Origin: Klebsiella pneumoniae
GTDB lineage: Bacteria; Desulfobacterota; Binatia; UBA12015
DNA length: 64,000 nt
Direction of reading: 5' to 3'
NCBI GenBank assembly: GCA_945872365.1
Contig: CAMBZJ010000003.1
Coordinates: 71,301-135,300, forward strand
Numbering within the stretch: position 1 is the stretch's first letter; every line of letters begins with the position of its first letter. A model generated the notes under the pieces. The model had not been told where the DNA came from. It worked only from the letters and a program-made list of their open reading frames with translations, and ran no database searches. Below, piece after piece: positions 3,071-13,119 of the stretch. The position numbers and the translations under genes are program-made.

Positions 3071-4321
3071 CTAGAACGTCGGCTCGGGGATCTCGAGCAG
3101 CCGGAATTCACCCGGGTGCGCATCGAGTTCTCGGCGCTCGAGTCTCGCGCGAACACGGTACCCGAGCGTCGGGCTCGGGCGTCCGACCGTGTAGAGGCAG
3201 CCATCGCCGACTTCGAGGGACTCGGCTTGCTCCACCGCGCGCCCGTCGGGCAGGCGCAGCACGCCGTGGTCCTCGATCCGGCCGCCGAGCGGGTCGATCG
3301 CCGCGAGCCGGATGCGCGGGCAGCGGACGATCCCGCTTCGCACCCACTCGCGGGCGAGGGCGAAGATGCGTCCGCGCCGCGGGCAGGACACAAGCCCCAG
3401 CGAAGCGCCGGCGCCGGCCCGGGCGGTCGTCGGAGAGTCCTTTCCCCGGCCTCGGCCCGAGATCGATCCGATCTCCTCGCAGCGTGCGCGCGCCGGGTCG
3501 AGGCGAAAGACCGTCGAAGAATCGTTCAGGATCCCCACGAAGGCTTCCGACTCCGGATGCCATGCGACGATGCGCCAGGGCTCGCCGCCGCGGCGATCGC
3601 CGAGCCGGGCGCCCGAAGTTCCGAGTCGCCCCGTGTCGGGATCGAGAAAGCAGCAGTCGCCGGATCGACGAGACCACCAGGCCCGGCCGTCGCGCGGATC
3701 CACCGCGATCGTCCTGCACACCGGCTCGCGCGGCCCGGGACCGATCTCGGCCCTGCCGCAGACGGGTCCGTGATTGACGAACCGGTTCGCGGCGAGGATC
3801 CCGCCTTTGCGCGCGAGGTCCACCTGCAGCAAGTGCCCCGACGGCCAGGTCAGGCCGAAGAGTCGATCCCGAAAGAGGTCCGCCGCCATCGCGATGATGC
3901 CCTGCTCCGAAGCCGCCCGCGCGATGGAGTCCACCCGCCCTGAGCGGGGATCGAAGGCGAAGAAGTGACCACCGCCGAAAGGTACGCGGCCGGGGATCCG
4001 CCCCGGCTGGGCCAGCCCGCGACGCCGCCGGTAGAACCCGACGTGGGTCGCCGCGAGCAGCAGGCCATCGCCGTCCTCGAACGGGCGCACGTGAATCTTG
4101 CCCTGCGCGATGCCGGCCGTCGCGTCCTCTCCGAGTGCGCGCCCCATGTCGATCCCGAGTCGCGCGAGGCCGGTGCGGGGATCGAGCGTCAGCCACCTCG
4201 CGGGCACGCCCGGATCGTGCGAGCTCATTGCCCAGTGGACTCGTCCGTCGCGGGTGCGGACGAGGCACTGGTAGTGGCAGTCGCCCGCGATCGGCTGGTC
4301 GGGGACCGGGGTCACCCGCAC
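3071..4321 (-). CDS. Predicted beta-propeller-like protein, last gene of the PqqD operon
   Basis: A protein of 416 residues without a signal peptide or membrane segment. It consists of repeated segments with patterns such as FAFDPRSGRV, TIAVDPRDGRAWW and FLDPDTGRLG, each an aspartate-proline-x-x-G-x turn between beta strands. That is typical of seven-bladed propellers (NHL, SMP-30 or lyase-like). I do not recognise a catalytic family. GTG at 4321 lies one base past the stop of the nucleotidyltransferase, so it is the sixth, coupled gene of the operon. A carbohydrate- or peptide-binding accessory role is inference from context only. Confidence 0.6.
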   Translation of the reverse strand: MRVTPVPDQPIAGDCHYQCLVRTRDGRVHWAMSSHDPGVPARWLTLDPRTGLARLGIDMGRALGEDATAGIAQGKIHVRPFEDGDGLLLAATHVGFYRRRRGLAQPGRIPGRVPFGGGHFFAFDPRSGRVDSIARAASEQGIIAMAADLFRDRLFGLTWPSGHLLQVDLARKGGILAANRFVNHGPVCGRAEIGPGPREPVCRTIAVDPRDGRAWWSRRSGDCCFLDPDTGRLGTSGARLGDRRGGEPWRIVAWHPESEAFVGILNDSSTVFRLDPARARCEEIGSISGRGRGKDSPTTARAGAGASLGLVSCPRRGRIFALAREWVRSGIVRCPRIRLAAIDPLGGRIEDHGVLRLPDGRAVEQAESLEVGDGCLYTVGRPSPTLGYRVRARLERRELDAHPGEFRLLEIPEPTF

Positions 4322-4322
4322 G

Positions 4323-5519
4323 TCAACCCCGGGCCCCGAGCCGGCGGGCGATCTCGCCCGCGCCATACAAGCCGACCTGCAGGAGACTCTCCGCGCCGAG
4401 CACGTGGCGGACGAAGGCGGGAAACGGCGGCACGACGCCGGCCGCCGGGTCGCTCCGCAACGCGCGGTGGCGGTCGCGCAGGTATGCCAGCTCGTCGAGG
4501 CCGCTCGCGACTCCCGGCGGCGCGGAGCGCCGGGCCCATGCACGCTCGTCGGCCGCCTCGACCGGCTCGGAGCGCAGGGCCTCGAGCACCTCGCGCGGAA
4601 CGCCGACCGGAAATCGCGGCTCGAGCCACGTGAGCATGTCGCGCGCCGGCACGACGAGGCCGCGCCGGCGCGCGTCGGCGAGGAAGATCGGCCAAGACGG
4701 CGTGGACGTTCGGAGCAGGGAGACGACATCGGCCACCCACCGGATGGGCGGGATCGGGTTCCAGCGCGCGCCGTGGGCCAGCAGGAGCAGCAGGTGGTCG
4801 GCCGGGGACGGAGCGAGCGCCCACTCGCCGCCCAGGTCGAGCGGGTGCGCGCGCGCCCACGCCGCGTCGTCCGCGCCGCGGTCGCAGCAGCCCTGGAAGA
4901 GAGCCCAGTGGAGGTCGACGTCGAAGCCGTCGTCCGTGGCGAAGCCGTGTGCATGTCGCACGCCGAAGTAGGATTCGTCGAAGGCCTCCAGCGGTCGAGG
5001 TCCGACGGTCCAGCGTGCGGTCGCAGGCGAGCCCTCGACCATCGCGCCGGTGAGCGGCGTCACCCCGGGGCGCCACCCCGCCGCGACGAGCGTCTCGACC
5101 GCGCGGCGGGCCGAGACCCGCGGTACGACGAGATCGCCGTCGCCCATCGGCCGGACGCCGGCGTCGCGGTAGGCCTCGAGGGAGAGCGGAACGCCCTTCA
5201 CCACCATCGCCGGGACGTCCGCCGCGCGGATCACCGCGACGAGCCTCGAGAGGCGCCCGATCGAGAGCCGGTTCGCGTACCAGGTGCGGCGGTAGACGCC
5301 CTTCAGCAGATCGCGCGACGGAAACTCGGAACCGAGATAGGGAAGGCGCTTCCAGAGCAGGGGCAGCAGGCGGTACGAGCCGGAGTCGAGTCGCCCGACG
5401 TCGGCGCGCCGCGACCATGCGTCGAGCGACTCCCTCGCACGCGCGAGGTCGTCGAGCAGGCAGGCCTCGAGGAGTAGCTGCTGCGTGTCGTCCGGACGCC
5501 AGGCGGTGTGCGGACTCAC
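4323..5519 (-). CDS. Nucleotidyltransferase family protein (NTP_transf_5 type)
   Basis: A protein of 398 residues matching the uncharacterised nucleotidyltransferase family that accompanies capsule, exopolysaccharide and some RiPP clusters. The core is the V-V-K-G-V-P-L-S segment followed about 20 residues later by R-P-M-G-D-G-D-L-V-V, whose two aspartates correspond to the metal-binding D-x-D of the fold. A later D-V-D-L-H-W stretch supplies the third carboxylate. In lasso-peptide clusters a related enzyme works together with an HPr-kinase-like protein. The start is GTG, overlapping the preceding glycosyltransferase stop as GTGA, so the two are translationally coupled. Confidence 0.82.
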   Translation of the reverse strand: MSPHTAWRPDDTQQLLLEACLLDDLARARESLDAWSRRADVGRLDSGSYRLLPLLWKRLPYLGSEFPSRDLLKGVYRRTWYANRLSIGRLSRLVAVIRAADVPAMVVKGVPLSLEAYRDAGVRPMGDGDLVVPRVSARRAVETLVAAGWRPGVTPLTGAMVEGSPATARWTVGPRPLEAFDESYFGVRHAHGFATDDGFDVDLHWALFQGCCDRGADDAAWARAHPLDLGGEWALAPSPADHLLLLLAHGARWNPIPPIRWVADVVSLLRTSTPSWPIFLADARRRGLVVPARDMLTWLEPRFPVGVPREVLEALRSEPVEAADERAWARRSAPPGVASGLDELAYLRDRHRALRSDPAAGVVPPFPAFVRHVLGAESLLQVGLYGAGEIARRLGARG

Positions 5520-6226
5520 GAGGTCGGCTCGCGGCCCGCGGTTCGCCTGCGATCGAGCACGGACTTGAGGAACCGCATCCGGGTCGACGCGTCGCGCCCC
5601 TGCACGAGGCTCGTGTTGCGGCCGTGGATCCGCCGCCGCAGGACAACCTCGGGCACGACCCGGACGGCGAGCCCGGCGTCGATCGCCCGCGTGTACCAGT
5701 CGAGGGCCGCGAGGACGGGCATGCTCTCGTCGATCGGCCCGACGCGGGAGACGGAGGATGCGCGCAGGATCGACGTGCCCGAGAGATGCCCTCGCTGGGC
5801 ATCCTCGGGGATCCTCACCCGCTGGCGGAGTTCGTCGGACGCGTCGGGACAAAGGAACGTCTCGAAGCAGCCGGTGACGAGGTCGATCGATGGGTCGGCG
5901 ACGAGCATACCGGCGAGCTTCCCGATCGCACCCGGCACGACCAAGTCGTCCGCGTCGAGGTGGAGGTGGAGATCGCCCGTCGCCGCCGAGACGGCTGCGT
6001 TGCGCGCGGAAGCCTGCCCGAGCGGCGGGCGTCGGATGCATCGCACCGGCGGCCCGAACGACTCCGCGACCGCCGCCGAGCCGTCCGTCGAGCCGTCGTC
6101 GACCACCAGCACTTCGATCGGCTCCCACCCCTCCGCAAGCACGCTCCGGATCGCCTCCTCGAGGTAGCGCTCGCCGTCCCTTACCGGGACGAGGACGCTC
6201 AGCGACGGCCGTCCGGAATCACCCAT
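5516..6226 (-). CDS. Glycosyltransferase family 2
   Basis: A GT-A fold glycosyltransferase of 236 residues. It opens with the family signature S-V-L-V-P-V-R-D-G, then V-V-D-D-G-S-T-D for the nucleotide, G-Q-A-S-A-R-N, and the metal-binding D-A-D-D. It is short and soluble, with no membrane anchor. The donor sugar and acceptor are unknown. I prefer ATG at 6226 over the in-frame start at 6286 because the domain begins six residues later. It overlaps the upstream glycosyltransferase by 8 bases and the downstream nucleotidyltransferase by 4, so all are one transcription unit. It resembles its neighbour at 6219-6959, possibly an old duplication. Confidence 0.88.
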   Translation of the reverse strand: MGDSGRPSLSVLVPVRDGERYLEEAIRSVLAEGWEPIEVLVVDDGSTDGSAAVAESFGPPVRCIRRPPLGQASARNAAVSAATGDLHLHLDADDLVVPGAIGKLAGMLVADPSIDLVTGCFETFLCPDASDELRQRVRIPEDAQRGHLSGTSILRASSVSRVGPIDESMPVLAALDWYTRAIDAGLAVRVVPEVVLRRRIHGRNTSLVQGRDASTRMRFLKSVLDRRRTAGREPTS

Positions 6227-6959
6227 CGGCGGGCTCGCGAAAGGACGAAAGGGGCGGCAGCGAGACCGCGACGCCACCGCGCGCACGGCGCCGATCCAGC
6301 GACCTCTTGAACATCATCATCTGGTAGCGCTTGCCGGCAGCGCGGTCGCGAGTGAGGTTGCCGCAGTGCAGGCGCTGTTCGAGGACGACGTGTCGATGCA
6401 GGAGCAGTGCGACCTCCGCCTCCCGCGCCCGCATGAACCAGTCCCAGTCGTCGCAGTGGAGCAGCGACTCGTCTAGCCACCCCACCCGGTCGAAGACCTC
6501 GCGCCGGAAGAGGGCCGTGCCGAGTTGCAGGGCGACGTGATCCTCCTCGATCACGGCGAAGCGGCGCTCCGACAGGCCGTCGTCGACCAGCGACAGGTAG
6601 CGGCTGCGCCCGATCACGACGTCGCGGTCGGGGTAGGACTCGAGACGCGCGAGTTGCAGGGCGAGCTTGTCCGGGGCGTACAGGTCGTCGGCGTCGAGGA
6701 ACCCCAGAATCGACCCGCACGCGAGCCCGATCCCGCGGTTGCGTGCGGCCGGGGCTCCCGCATTCGCCTGGCGGAAGACCCGGACCGGGGCGCCTAGGGA
6801 CTCGGCAATCGCGGCGCTGTCGTCGGTCGAGCCGTCATCGACCACGACGATCTCGATCGGGCGGTGCGCCTGGGCGAGGACGCTCCGGATGCCCTCGGCG
6901 AGGAATCCCGCGCCGTTGCGCACCGGGATGACGATGCTGACCAGCGGCGGCCCGCTCAC
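6219..6959 (-). CDS. Glycosyltransferase family 2
   Basis: A soluble GT-A enzyme of 246 residues. The expected signatures are present in order: V-S-I-V-I-P-V-R-N-G at residue 7, V-V-D-D-G-S-T-D-D-S, A-A-R-N-R-G and the D-A-D-D metal site. After these comes W-L-D-E-S and the C-D-D-W-D-W motif that usually positions the acceptor. GTG at 6959 overlaps the stop of the HPr-kinase-like gene as GTGA. It shares the family and the general length of the next gene downstream. Its role as a sugar-adding enzyme is firm at family level. The substrate is unknown, but coupling to PqqD, kinase and nucleotidyltransferase genes suggests modification of a peptide or carrier. Confidence 0.88.
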   Translation of the reverse strand: MSGPPLVSIVIPVRNGAGFLAEGIRSVLAQAHRPIEIVVVDDGSTDDSAAIAESLGAPVRVFRQANAGAPAARNRGIGLACGSILGFLDADDLYAPDKLALQLARLESYPDRDVVIGRSRYLSLVDDGLSERRFAVIEEDHVALQLGTALFRREVFDRVGWLDESLLHCDDWDWFMRAREAEVALLLHRHVVLEQRLHCGNLTRDRAAGKRYQMMMFKRSLDRRRARGGVAVSLPPLSSFREPADG

Positions 6960-8047
6960 GGGGCCACCTCGCCGCGAGCCACCCCCGCGAGCAGCAGCAC
7001 CGCGTCCGCGGGGTCGGCGCCCAACTCGAGTTCGAAGCACGGCAGCCCGCGCACGAGCCTCGCTAGCCGATCCAGCGTCCCGGCGCGATCGCCCGGCAGC
7101 TGCATCATCGTGCTCGGCGCGAGAGCCCGCAGCGCGGCGACCGGGGCGATCGGCGAGAGCCGCGGCGTCGACGCTCCGAGCCGCGGGACGACCACCGCGC
7201 GCAGGGGCATCGAGGCGATCATCGCCGCCGGGAATTCCTGCGCGACCCCGATCACGGTCTTGCCCGCCACCCGGAGCGTGGATCGCTCGAAGGCCGACCG
7301 GATCCCCGGCAGTCGCTCGATCGAGCCGGCGTCCGCCTTCCCGGTGCCGTAGAGCGAGTGCACGCGACGCTCCCCGCCGGGCGAAACGAGGCAGTAGTCG
7401 TCGGCCGCGTAGCCGAGCCCCGAGCCGATGCAGGCGAGCGCGGTCGTCGACTTGCCCGAGCCGCCGCGACCGGCGAGCAGCACGCCACCGTCTGGCGTTC
7501 CCACGGCCGACGCGTGCACGAGCTGGCATCCGTGATCGGCGGCCCACCAGTGCAGGACGCGGCGCGCGGGCGCGGACCGCTCCCACGCCTCGACGTTCGA
7601 GGCATCGGGGAAGCGCACGAGCCCGAGGCGCCTCGCCGGGTCGTAGCCGGAGAGCGCTCTCCTCGACGGCTCCCATGCGAGCCGGACCGGACCGTCGACA
7701 AAGTCGAGGCCGACGCGACCGGGTGAGCCGGGGGGCTCGGGCGTCACGATCCCTGTCGAGGAGTCGTCCCAGAAGGCGATCGCGAGATCGGGCGACGCGA
7801 CCTGCTCGCAGGCGAGGTGCGCGAACGCCGACCAGAGGATCTCTTCGAGCGCCGGCCCGCGAAAACGCAGGGCGACCGTGAACCCCGCCACGCGCAGAAA
7901 TCGCTCCCGAAGGCCCGCCGAACGCTCAGCACGCGAGGACGCGTCGAGGAGGGCGTCGAAGAACCAGCCCCGCGGGGCGTCTTCCCCGGCATCGACGATG
8001 CCATGGGCATCCGTGTGGGCTCTCGCGACGTCGGCGGAAGGGCTCAT
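6956..8047 (-). CDS. HPr-kinase-like P-loop protein
   Basis: A protein of 363 residues whose C-terminal half has the HPr kinase/phosphorylase fold. The P-loop G-R-G-G-S-G-K-S-T is at 193-201, and a D-D pair about 15 residues later (216-217) sits where the kinase aspartates are expected. The N-terminal 170 residues are specific to this subgroup. True HPr kinases regulate the sugar PTS, but this divergent group co-occurs with PqqD and nucleotidyltransferase genes and, in lasso-peptide clusters, phosphorylates a serine of the peptide. No PTS genes are nearby, so a peptide or protein substrate is the better guess. It starts 8 bases after the PqqD gene. Confidence 0.78.
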   Translation of the reverse strand: MSPSADVARAHTDAHGIVDAGEDAPRGWFFDALLDASSRAERSAGLRERFLRVAGFTVALRFRGPALEEILWSAFAHLACEQVASPDLAIAFWDDSSTGIVTPEPPGSPGRVGLDFVDGPVRLAWEPSRRALSGYDPARRLGLVRFPDASNVEAWERSAPARRVLHWWAADHGCQLVHASAVGTPDGGVLLAGRGGSGKSTTALACIGSGLGYAADDYCLVSPGGERRVHSLYGTGKADAGSIERLPGIRSAFERSTLRVAGKTVIGVAQEFPAAMIASMPLRAVVVPRLGASTPRLSPIAPVAALRALAPSTMMQLPGDRAGTLDRLARLVRGLPCFELELGADPADAVLLLAGVARGEVAP

Positions 8048-8054
8048 CCCGCGA

Positions 8055-8489
8055 TCAATCGCCCTTCGGCTTGAGCGGCCACCCCACCGGCTGCACCTCG
8101 TGAATCGGATCGACGAGCAGCAGCTCTTCCATGTCGGAGTAACGCTCCAGCGTCGGCGGCACGAAGGGCGAGAGTCCGTCGGCGGACGTCTCGCCCTCGG
8201 CGAGCGCCGCGATCGAGTCGCCGGAGGGTCCGTCCACGATTAGGTTCTCGGCCAGGAGTTTCCCGACGAAGCGGGCGACCGCGTCGGCAACGTCCTCGCG
8301 GCTCGCCCCGCCCGTCCGCGCGATACGCTCGACGATGGCCCCTTCGTCTAGCCCTCGCAGCAGCTCGGACCAGATCATCCCACCCGAGCCGGCGAGACTG
8401 TAAAAAATCCCGGTCGCGACGTTGACGATGATGACCTCGCCGTCGACGTTCTCCTGCGCGACGTCCGGCGTATTCAAGTGGTAGGGCAT
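8055..8489 (-). CDS. PqqD-family protein (RiPP recognition element-like)
   Basis: A protein of 144 residues. Residues 1-90 match the PqqD fold: an N-terminal strand pair around E-V-I-I-V-N-V-A-T-G-I-F-Y-S-L, then a G-x-x-I-W motif (G-G-M-I-W) and two helices. PqqD domains bind leader peptides of ribosomally made, post-translationally modified peptides. The C-terminal 50 residues are a family-specific tail containing a P-P-T-L-E-R-Y segment, of the kind sometimes seen in short precursor or substrate proteins. It is the first gene of the six-gene operon and is preceded by a candidate promoter at 8538-8566. No separate precursor-peptide gene is evident between this start and the tRNA-like element. 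Confidence 0.85.
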   Translation of the reverse strand: MPYHLNTPDVAQENVDGEVIIVNVATGIFYSLAGSGGMIWSELLRGLDEGAIVERIARTGGASREDVADAVARFVGKLLAENLIVDGPSGDSIAALAEGETSADGLSPFVPPTLERYSDMEELLLVDPIHEVQPVGWPLKPKGD

Positions 8490-8711: not shown

Positions 8712-8785
8712 TGGCGCCGCCAGGCCTCGAACCTGGGACCAACCGGTTATGAGCCGGCCGCTCTGACCAACTGAGCAACGGGCCC
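8712..8785 (-). tRNA. tRNA-like gene with CAU anticodon, damaged acceptor stem (likely pseudo-tRNA)
   Basis: A 74-nt cloverleaf nearly identical to the intact tRNA at 13046-13119, with the same D arm, CAU anticodon arm and T arm. The 3' acceptor strand reads CGGCGCC instead of CGGGCCC, which places two mismatches (G-G and C-C) in the middle of the seven-base acceptor stem, and the base after the stem is T-T instead of T-A. No CCA is encoded. These changes suggest a decayed copy. It sits directly beside a remnant of the dnaG 3' end in the same orientation. Confidence 0.7.
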
Positions 8786-9982: not shown

Positions 9983-10731
9983 CGATCGACTCCGGGTCGG
10001 GTGATCGAAAACACATATCCCAGGGTGATGAAGTCGCGGACGTAGGGAATGGCGCGCAGCGGAGCCAGTGCGTGCGTGAGGGCCATGTTCGGTCGGTACC
10101 ATCGATTGGTCTCGAACAGCCGGTAGCGTCGCTCGAGGAGCCGAAACTCGCCCCCGGGACACTCCGCAAGGAACTCGGGCAGGTTTCCCTGCATGATCAC
10201 GGTGCGATGCGTCCGGTCGAAGATGCCGCGTTCGTTGCGCCGCCAGCGGCGGCTCAGGAAGACCCAGAGCGTGTGCCAGTGGCCCCAATTGGGGACCGAC
10301 ACGACCAGGCGCCCCGCGGGCGCGAGGTGCCGGTAGAGGATGCCGGTCACGCGCTCGAAGCGGACCGTGTGCTCGAGCACGTCGCCGGCCACCACGTGGT
10401 CGAATACGAGGTCCCCGAGCGCCGCCTCGAGCGCCGCCGTGTCGTCCAGGTCGAGCGCCCAGCCCTGGTCGAGCTCCGGCAGGGCACGCGCGAGGGCCTC
10501 GGGGTTCACGTCGATGCCGCGGATCTCGACGCCGGGAAAGCGCGCTCGGAGCGCGCGGGCAAAGGCCCCCTCGTTGCAGCCGACGTCGAGGACGCTGCGC
10601 GGTTCGCTCAACCAGCGCAGCAGGTCGTGCCGCGGCCCTCGGTAGGAAGCGTGATCGTGCACGCCCGAGGGAGAAGCCCAATCGGCCGGCTGGATCAACC
10701 CGCAACGGCGAGCGCGGACTTGCACCGCCAT
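9979..10731 (-). CDS. Class I SAM-dependent methyltransferase (MetW-like)
   Basis: A protein of 250 residues. The SAM-binding motif V-L-D-V-G-C-N-E-G is near residue 47, motif II ends in the acidic I-D-V-N, and the F-D-H-V-V-A-G-D-V-L-E-H stretch corresponds to motif III of the MetW and UbiG type. A later N-W-G-H-W pattern is seen in family members acting on methionine or polysaccharide precursors. The ATG at 10731 faces the acyltransferase gene, with which it shares a 46-base divergent region. A role in capping or methylating a surface glycan is inference from its neighbours. Confidence 0.8.
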   Translation of the reverse strand: MAVQVRARRCGLIQPADWASPSGVHDHASYRGPRHDLLRWLSEPRSVLDVGCNEGAFARALRARFPGVEIRGIDVNPEALARALPELDQGWALDLDDTAALEAALGDLVFDHVVAGDVLEHTVRFERVTGILYRHLAPAGRLVVSVPNWGHWHTLWVFLSRRWRRNERGIFDRTHRTVIMQGNLPEFLAECPGGEFRLLERRYRLFETNRWYRPNMALTHALAPLRAIPYVRDFITLGYVFSITRPGVDR

Positions 10732-10777
10732 GCGAGGGAGCGGTATCCCGGTGGCGGCCACGCGACCAAAACACTCC

Positions 10778-12956
10778 ATGCTCGACCCATCGAATGGCGG
10801 AACCGCGGTAGACTCGGCGGCGGCCGGGCCATCCGGGGGCCTGGCGTCGGCGGTGCCGCGGCGTTCGGAGGGGTGGCGGGCGGACATCGACGGCTTGCGG
10901 GCGGTCGGCGTGCTCGCGGTAATCGTCTTCCACCTGCGCAAGCGCTGGCTTCCCGGCGGCTTCGCGGGCGTCGACGTGTTCTTCGTGATCTCGGGCTTCC
11001 TGATCACGCGGGCGATCGTCGAGGACCTCTCGGCCGGGGTGTTCTCGCGCACCGAGTTCTACCGGCGGCGGGTGAAGCGGATCTCGCTGCCGATGCTGGC
11101 GGTGGTGCTGGCGACCGTCGCGTTCGCGCAGGTCGCGCTACTGCCGAAGGACGCGCTGGCGACGGCCTGGTCGGGCGTCGCCGCCGTGCTCTCCGGCGCG
11201 AACGTCTACTTCTGGCGGGCGCTCGATCGAAGCTACTTCGCACCGGGCACCGACGAGGTGCCGCTGCTGCATCTCTGGTCGCTCGGGGTGGAGGAGCAGT
11301 TCTATCTGCTCTGGCCCTGGGTGGTACCGTGGATCCTCGGGCGGCGCGGGACCGCGCACGGGGGCGCGTCGGGCCTCGCCGCGCACGTCGACGATGAGTC
11401 GCCGCGACGGGATGCCGCGACGGCGTCGCTTCCGGCAGGGCGCATGGCGCTGATGGCGGCCGTGGCGCTTGCCTCGTTCCTGCTCGGCGACGCCCTGTTC
11501 GGGAGCGCGCCCTACTTCGCGTACTACATGCTGCCGACGCGGGTGGGCGAGTTGCTGGTCGGGGCGATCCTCGCCTTCGCGGTCGCGGGTGGAGCGCTAC
11601 AGGCCCCGGGAAGCCTGCTCCGGGAGGCGGCGGGGGCGGCCGGCGCTCGTGCTGGGCTCGCTCGTGCTGCTGTCGGAAAGCAAGCCGTTCCCGGGATGGC
11701 GCGCGCTCGCGCCGACGGTCGGGGCGGCACTCTTGCTGCTCTCCGGACAAGGGATGCCGAGCGCCGTGTCTCGCGTGCTCTCCCTGCGACCGCTCGTCGC
11801 GGTCGGACGCGTATCGTACTCCGCCTACCTGTGGCATTGGCCGCTGATCGCGTTCTGGAAGTACGGCTTCCGGCAGGTCGGCGATCTCGCGGGCCTCGGG
11901 ATCTTCGCGGCGACGTTCGCGCTTGCGGCGGCGAGCCATCGCTGGATCGAGCGCCCGGCGCGGCGGACGACGGCCTCGGCGGAGCGGGTTGCGGTCCTGC
12001 AGTGGTTCGTCCCGGGCGGGGTCGTCATGGCGGCGGCGCTGCTCGCGATCGCGACCCGTGGCCTCGGGCCACGCGCGCTCTCGGCGAGTTACGCGGGGCG
12101 GCTCGACGCGATGCACCGGGGCCTCCGGCCGGCCTACGGCTTCGAGTCCGTCTGCCAGGACCACCGGGTCGAATCGGAACGATTGTTTGAGCCGGTACGC
12201 TGCGTGAACGGGGCGGAGGGAGGCCCCGACGGTGTTCTGCTCTGGGGAGACTCGAACGCGGCCCACTATGTCGGCATGCTCGACGTCATCGCCCGGGCTG
12301 CCGGCTTCCGCTTTCGGAACTTCGAGGTCACCGCCTGCCCCCCGGTGCTGGAGGCACCGGGCCGACTCGCGCGGAACCCGCTGCGAAAGGGGCACTGCGA
12401 GGCTGCGAGCCGCCTCGTGAAGTCGCGCATCGGACGCTACCCGTTGGTCGTCCTCGCGGGCCGGTGGGACGGGTACACGCAGGACGGCCTCTTCGATGCG
12501 CTCGCCGGGACCGCCCGCGGGCTGGTCGCCGAGGGTCACCGGGTGATCCTGGTCGGCGAGATTCCCCGGCTGCCGGAGTTCTATGATCCCGACTGCGGAA
12601 GGCGGGCGCTCTCGTTTCCGGGACTCGACTGCCCGGCCCAGGTGACGGCACCCATCGCGCCGGAAGTCCGGGCGCTGAATGCGCGGCTCGCGGAGATCGC
12701 CGAGCGCACACCGGGGGTCGAATACTTCGACGCGAACCGCGAACTCTGTCCGGAGGGGCGCTGCTCGGCCTTCGCCGCCGACGGTACCGTGATCTATCGG
12801 GACTCGACCCATCTCACGATGCCCGGCTCGATACTTCTCGGCCAGGCGGTGCTGTCGGCTCGGGGCGTCCCACCGCCGTTCGACCAGGTGCCCGCATGGC
12901 TCGCCGAAGCCGGACGCGGCGCAGCCTCCCCGCCTCGCGACCGGGATCCCTCGTGA
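10778..12956 (+). pseudogene. Membrane acyltransferase with C-terminal SGNH domain, frameshifted
   Basis: An OafA/YrhL-type acyltransferase that would O-acetylate a surface sugar. The first frame gives R-A-D-I-D-G-L-R-A-V-G, the conserved histidine region around F-H-L-R, G-V-D-V-F-F-V-I-S-G-F and several transmembrane helices. The frame is then lost near 11628-11642, in a run rich in G and C, and continues one frame over with L-W-H-W-P and a periplasmic SGNH-like domain (G-D-S-N, then D-S-T-H-L near the end). Both halves retain family features, so the break is recent or a sequencing artefact. The start at 10778 is uncertain. Confidence 0.72.
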
Positions 12957-13045: not shown

Positions 13046-13119
13046 GGGCCCGTAGCTCAGTTGGTCAGAGCGGCCGGCTCATAACCGGTTGGTCCCAGGT
13101 TCGAGGCCTGGCGGGCCCA
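13046..13119 (+). tRNA. tRNA with CAU anticodon (elongator Met or lysidine-type Ile2)
   Basis: An intact 74-nt cloverleaf: acceptor GGGCCCG with CGGGCCC, D arm GCTCAGTTGGTCAGAGC, anticodon arm CCGGCTCATAACCGG with CAU anticodon, T arm CCAGGTTCGAGGCCTGG and discriminator A. There is no initiator-type mismatch at position 1-72, so it is elongator Met or Ile2. The TTGGTC variable loop is more like Ile2, but I cannot settle it. CCA is not encoded. A stable hairpin follows at once. It stands on the plus strand, opposite to the pseudo-copy at 8712-8785. Confidence 0.9.

Follow-up and report, generated by a model that had tools for sequence, protein, structure and literature searches.

A PqqD-family protein with a conserved leader-like C-terminal tail in an operon of kinase, nucleotidyltransferase and glycosyltransferase genes

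The operon described here lies in a 64,000-nucleotide stretch of DNA (contig CAMBZJ010000003.1, positions 71,301 to 135,300; hereafter the window, in whose own numbering all coordinates are given), and its first gene encodes a PqqD-family recognition element (RRE), of the type used in pathways for ribosomally synthesized and post-translationally modified peptides (RiPPs), that ends in a conserved peptide resembling a RiPP leader. The operon comprises six genes, all on the minus strand between positions 3071 and 8489, with intergenic distances of +7, -4, -8, -4 and +7 bases; an earlier note on this DNA had described such a run of overlapping or barely separated genes, and the measured distances confirm it. 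The PqqD-family protein (8055..8489; 144 amino acids; Pfam PqqD, 3.7e-10) shares its tail with 31 relatives. The second gene encodes an HprK-like kinase of 363 amino acids (6956..8047), whose matches to Hpr_kinase_C (8e-5) and HprK_rel_B (7e-9) both fall below the family cut-offs; the Hpr_kinase_C match is nevertheless clear, and the kinase retains the catalytic His-Lys-Asp-Asp set as predicted active-site residues H178, K199, D216 and D217. Two homologous family 2 glycosyltransferases (GT2s), which match the same relatives, follow: GT2a (6219..6959; 246 amino acids; PF00535, 1.2e-29), in which D91, D93 and D94 are conserved across the family, and GT2b (5516..6226, with an alternative GTG start at 6286; 236 amino acids; PF00535, 3.3e-27). 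The fifth gene encodes a nucleotidyltransferase-like protein of the NTP_transf_5 family (4323..5519; 398 amino acids; PF14907, 3.1e-34). Only one NTP_transf_5 protein and one PqqD-family protein were found in the genome. Neither the kinase nor the NTP_transf_5 protein gave a useful match when its sequence was searched against the PDB.

The tail is best described against the rest of the protein that bears it. The RRE domain occupies residues 10 to 86 (8232..8462, minus strand, as are all parts of this gene), and its profile matches to TbiB1 (1.8e-19), 9x90, TfuB1, PbaB1 and LppB (9x8z) point to a PqqD-type RRE with a leader-binding cleft; by alignment to LppB, for which contacts are published (PMC13381572), A70, F74, L78 and L83 are the predicted leader-cleft positions. 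A variable linker (residues 87 to 108; 8166..8231), 18 to 26 residues long in 31 proteins, separates this domain from a C-terminal stretch that is conserved in all 32 PqqD proteins. The first half of the stretch, FVPPTLERYSDM in the window (residues 109 to 120; 8130..8165), reads [F/Y/W]xxPx[L/I/V/F]xx[Y/F]xDM, and its leader motif, [F/Y/W]xxPx[L/I/V/F], is kept in 29 of 31 aligned tails. The second half, which we call the core, is EELLLVDPIHEVQPVGWP in the window (residues 121 to 138; 8076..8129) and reads xxLLxLDP(IHEVDxxGWP), or LDPPxPGxxDxxW in one subgroup. D127 and P128 are present in 31 of 31 tails, D119 in 30 and P112 in 29. Conservation is highest in residues 121 to 138, at 2.99 bits per column, followed by residues 109 to 120 at 2.65, the RRE at 2.16 and the linker at 1.20. 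For five close relatives, the ratio of nonsynonymous to synonymous polymorphism (pN/pS) was lowest in the tail (0.15), intermediate in the RRE (0.26) and highest in the linker (0.65). By these sequence measures, no part of the protein is under stronger constraint than the tail. The earlier note had remarked on a distinctive tail on the first gene, and that tail is real.

The genes around this protein are conserved as well. When the kinase alone was used as the query against 98 related genomes, a search not based on the tail, 14 strong matches were obtained; a tail-bearing PqqD adjoined 12 of them, one lay at a contig end and one (L040) had a different arrangement. The loci of those 12 matches contain GT2 genes and usually an NTP_transf_5 gene. 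Further loci came from a pattern made from the tail, which found 10 of 148 genomes of the class and 6 of 395 of the phylum, chance matches included (a reversed-pattern control gave zero), and from a profile built on the PqqD proteins. Because that profile included the tail, tail conservation in the later loci is partly a product of selection, from which the kinase-first set is free. Altogether, 32 tail-type loci, the window included, were collected from one large phylum and from a cyanobacterial plasmid, so the co-occurrence in distant genomes that the earlier note had suggested looking for does exist. The kinase is present in 31 of these loci, GT2 in 29 and NTP_transf_5 in 25; seven of the 11 gene absences fall at contig ends, and the other four are complete loci without an adjacent NTP_transf_5 gene. 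As called from contigs of metagenome-assembled genomes, the kinase is fused to a GT2 at seven loci, and five loci have a fusion of two or more GT2s. A named example, on plasmid pCRI9333.04 of the cyanobacterium Crinalium epipsammum PCC 9333, comprises genes for PqqD, NTP_transf_5, HPr kinase, an FkbM methyltransferase, GT2, an epimerase, a further GT2, an SMP-30 propeller, a TPR protein, a second NTP_transf_5 protein and an ABC exporter. Viral contigs and phages gave no match, and one 5.5-kb contig labelled Bacteroidetes (L058) was left out of claims about spread, since it is possibly misbinned. The PqqD-type RRE, HprK-like kinase, GT2s and NTP_transf_5 protein are thus a conserved unit in distant genomes.

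The sixth gene of the operon is not part of that unit. Its 414-amino-acid product (3071..4315) has no Pfam match, and a propeller fold is plausible but unproven, being suggested by repeats of the DPxTG type, recognized by eye, and by a PDB match that is very weak (E 0.37). The earlier note had counted it as a member of the system; no relative was found in the 144 other genomes of the class, and the propeller was dropped as a core component. Unrelated SMP-30-type propellers occur near two other loci.

Since glycosyltransferases dominate these loci, and extra GT2, methyltransferase and acyltransferase genes lie immediately upstream of the window operon, it could be supposed that this is a surface-polysaccharide locus of the ordinary kind, with PqqD and HprK present only incidentally. 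We consider this very unlikely, as co-conservation disfavours it: PqqD, HprK and NTP_transf_5 are kept across distant families and in a cyanobacterium while the other glycan genes change, and HprK is itself joined to a GT2 in the fusions described above. Reading of the annotated loci revealed no flippase or polymerase, although no Wzx/Wzy profile search was made. An ABC polysaccharide exporter pair was recognized, by reading, at L077 only and was not seen near the window operon; the genes therefore do not appear always to lie in ordinary capsule loci, an outcome that the earlier note had named as one that would speak against a distinct system.

The first half of the tail matches a known class of leader peptide. 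The discrete RREs of lasso peptide and linear polyphosphorylated peptide (LPP) pathways bind the leader motif [Y/W]xxPx[L/V/I/F/A] (PMC13381572), to which the tail motif conforms. The tail also aligns position for position with separate precursors (YEKPELVIYEDLSDVT) that are encoded beside tailless RREs in the same phylum; in one such pair, YEKPELVIYEDLSDVTAG is aligned with the tail FEKPMLEKFTDMEDLLLLDP of Crinalium. When separate precursors from tailless RRE loci (YEKPELVIYEDLSDV) were scored with a matrix derived from the tails, they ranked higher than every one, or almost every one, of 2000 shuffles.

The tail and the RRE that precedes it appear to vary together. The crystal structure of LppB shows a hydrogen bond from Asp70 to the leader Tyr (PMC13381572), and this Asp aligns with residue 70 of the window PqqD. 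Asp70 occurs in 10 of 10 proteins whose tail has Tyr at the aromatic position and in none of the 17 with Phe. When all RRE columns were scanned without guidance, before the tenth Tyr case was added, residue 70 ranked first (p 1e-5) and the next column reached 5e-3. Among the tailless RREs compared, all eight have Asp (a cognate Tyr precursor was seen for five, and Tyr was assumed for the rest). The statistic of first choice treats the proteins as independent, and they are related; as the counts are not independent, the co-variation is suggestive, albeit mechanistically exact, and not statistically conclusive. These comparisons suggest that the tail is likely bound by the RRE, either in cis or between copies.

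A separate precursor gene was sought and not found. No standalone tail peptide was detected by pattern in the 148 and 395 genomes (control, 0), and no recurring small open reading frame (ORF) or separate precursor was found in the tail-type loci, so that a hidden standalone copy of the tail was rejected after both searches; pattern matches outside PqqD (L061, L070, L071 and L074) had arisen by chance in other frames or proteins. The recurring small peptide anticipated by the earlier note is instead fused to PqqD. With a local profile that does detect the B2 leader peptidase in lasso loci, B2 was found in 0 of 32 tail loci. The archaeal-type signal peptidase (SpI) was not seen in the window operon or among the annotated genes of the tail loci.

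Another reading is that the operon belongs to a lasso or LPP system and that the usual precursor, peptidase or cyclase of that system is encoded at a distant place in the genome. One genome, G176, does hold both designs, with tail-type loci L076 and L116 and a tailless locus, L125, that has separate precursors and a B2-like protein; asparagine-synthase-like genes, of the macrolactam cyclase kind, lie near L050 and L051, the only places where they were seen, and not in the window neighbourhood. Against this stand the lack of a recurrent small ORF and of B2 in the tail loci and the composition of the window genome, which beyond its single PqqD-family and NTP_transf_5 proteins has only one Transglut_core3 match, which is partial and lies in a frame of 528 codons at the end of a contig. 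Furthermore, the tail-type RREs form one clade separate from the tailless RREs (support, 95/97). We regard an origin of the missing parts elsewhere in the genome as unlikely.

Several tailless loci are of interest in themselves. At L125 (4015-5357), L126 (3045-6598) and L127 (5047-5160), one to several precursor-like peptides of about 30 amino acids, such as MKQDYEKPELVIYEDLSDVTAG, are encoded around RRE, HprK-like kinase and NTP_transf_5 genes, at L125 together with a Transglut_core3 B2-like gene; we read these as LPP- or lasso-like RiPP loci with several precursors in a phylum other than Bacillota. Loci L163 to L168 include lasso-type loci with B2 and cyclase-like genes, and at L163 (472-1262) three tandem peptides of the SSPWKAPHLVDISLLNETSAHTGMVYDGE type, with WxxPxL leaders, lie near genes for an RRE, B2 and a lasso-cyclase-like protein. 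Peptidase S24/S26-like genes were found only at the tailless loci L040 (17703-19656) and L128 (5933-6770), where they adjoin the RRE gene, at L040 together with an HprK-like kinase gene; this resembles the LPP arrangement, here outside Bacillota.

We propose that the operon encodes a RiPP-like module in which an RRE carries a built-in, uncleaved leader-plus-core peptide that serves the kinase, the NTP_transf_5 protein and the glycosyltransferases, a reading to which we give a little less than an even chance. According to this model, the RRE would bind the [F/Y/W]xxPxL motif in the C-terminal tail of the same molecule (in cis) or of a neighbouring copy and would thereby present the distal tail (of the DPIHEVDxxGWP type) to the HprK-like kinase, NTP_transf_5 protein and GT2s, which would add to it a group containing phosphate and sugar. 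In pseudomycoidin biosynthesis, PsmK and PsmN add phosphate and then a hexose to a peptide Ser (PMC9266682). Because a leader peptidase is absent from the loci, the peptide would remain attached, and the product would therefore be a modified protein or a carrier-bound glycan and not a released peptide; the ABC exporter encoded at 8 loci may export the modified protein or a later product. The suggestion in the earlier note that the tail could serve as the substrate was well founded, since the tail is a conserved leader-like peptide, although its part as the modified substrate is inferred. It is also conceivable, if somewhat more doubtful, that precursor and RRE are fused and never cleaved so that the conserved tail acts as a protein primer for a phospho-glycan, a genetically encoded glycan carrier as opposed to a secreted peptide.

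A number of observations weigh against a modified tail. Known kinases of the HprK-like kind require Ser, and the tail has no Ser, Thr or Tyr that is invariant: Thr or Ser occupies position 118 in 20 of 31 tails, with Arg, Asp, Glu or another residue in the others, and position 117 is Tyr in 21 and Phe in 9. The phosphate acceptor is accordingly unexplained, and phosphorylation of a conserved tail Ser was dropped as an idea for want of such a Ser. RiPP cores are usually variable, unlike the tail core, which is nearly invariant. Two divergent members, L159 and L160, have lost the aromatic-Pro motif. As for binding, the tail aromatic switches about three times on the tree, each time together with residue 70, and only one of these switches lies on well-supported branches; AlphaFold2 applied to PqqD alone gave no usable fold (predicted local distance difference test score, 41).

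The lack of an invariant phosphate acceptor and the near-invariance of the core are what would be expected of a docking peptide, and the chief alternative to a modified tail is that the tail sits in the RRE cleft only as a lock or docking handle that groups the kinase, NTP_transf_5 protein and GT2s. The RRE would then have been retired from precursor binding, and the real substrate would be elsewhere, for example, a lipid-linked glycan, a nucleotide sugar or a surface protein. Genes for GT2, GT4, epimerases and membrane export are common neighbours of the tail-type loci, and those at L077, read by eye, include a Wzm/Wzt-type ABC pair, which is consistent with such a substrate. However, the motif is that of a leader, with a distal conserved part where the core peptide would sit, and the same enzymes modify such peptides in the LPP and paeninodin systems (PMC13381572, PMC9266682). 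In addition, gene order and the accessory glycan genes differ among loci, whereas the tail stays constant. Although a serious contender, a tail that only docks seems to us doubtful.

The module that we propose, with the tail as its peptide, resembles two described systems and can be set apart from both. LPP clusters, reported to be confined to Bacillota (Popov et al., Nat Commun 2026, PMC13381572), have a discrete PqqD-type RRE, an HprK-like kinase, an NTP transferase and often an MsbA-like exporter but no macrolactam cyclase, and the LPP precursor leader carries YxxPx[V/L]; the combination of RRE, HprK-like kinase and NTP transferase is present here, at some loci together with an exporter. 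In contrast to LPP, with its separate precursor (YxxPxVLxHQxIxFETxxS) and phosphorylated Ser, the leader-like peptide here is fused to the RRE, has no invariant Ser and is accompanied by no detected peptidase, SpI being an LPP component; GT2s, some of them fused to the kinase, are near-universal. The paeninodin and pseudomycoidin lasso pathways share the His-Lys-Asp-Asp kinase and an NTP_transf_5 homologue (PsmN, which adds hexose after phosphorylation), and their B1/RRE binds [Y/W]xxPxL leaders (PMC9266682); they differ in having a B2 protease, a lasso cyclase, a conserved terminal Ser and a separate precursor with the YxxPxL leader, a motif that here sits on the RRE protein. The operon is thus distinguished from LPP and paeninodin-type lasso systems because it lacks their defining traits, namely, a separate precursor, SpI or B2, and a cyclase. 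The earlier note had linked the RRE, kinase and NTP_transf_5 trio to lasso-peptide tail modification; the trio is indeed known from phosphorylated lasso peptides (PMC9266682), but it is not confined to them, since cyclase-free LPP has it too (PMC13381572). The HprK-rel-A, HprK-rel-B and SynChlorMet families (NCBIfam TIGR04352, TIGR04355 and TIGR04249) belong to the same broad HprK-like group, with weak matches only, all far below the family cut-offs. To our knowledge, neither the tail nor the GT2 partners fall within the definitions of these three families.

The genes checked beside the window operon encode a zinc-ribbon protein, an acyl-CoA dehydrogenase, a GT2, a methyltransferase, an AT3-SGNH acyltransferase and a 211-amino-acid ORF without a Pfam match. 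None of these checked neighbours is a radical SAM protein, lasso cyclase or B2 protease, in agreement with the earlier note, whose statement on radical SAM holds for the window operon and not for several relatives. The tail-type loci L109, L110, L111, L112, L113 and L118 of a second class have radical SAM genes nearby, one of which contains a SPASM domain (Pfam was checked in four). The OafA-like AT3-SGNH acyltransferase gene (10730-12956) is broken across two frames near 11.6 kb, owing to a frameshift or an assembly error. Two tRNA-Met genes in inverted orientation (8712-8785, minus strand; 13046-13119, plus strand), identical at 71 of 74 bases, bracket a 4.3-kb segment with the GT2, methyltransferase and acyltransferase genes; the sequences flanking them are not duplicated.

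In the RRE-dependent pathways known to us, the RRE is either separate from the peptide that it recognizes or joined to an enzyme. In the literature searched, with subscription papers and preprints outside the search, no RRE joined to a precursor-like peptide was described; a 2025 RRE survey reported that 21% of PF05402 proteins are larger than the discrete size but contain no other known domain. The operon looks like a peptide- or protein-modification pathway of unusual design, in which an adaptor bears its own apparent target peptide on its tail. If this is correct, fusion of the RRE to a leader-plus-core peptide would make substrate binding obligatory in cis, would act as a self-contained tag for phosphorylation and glycosylation and would explain the missing precursor gene, and genome-mining tools that seek a precursor would overlook such clusters. 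The RRE-kinase-NTP_transf_5 module, known as LPP only from Bacillota, is extended here to another phylum and to cyanobacteria, and gene fusions tie it directly to glycosyltransferases.

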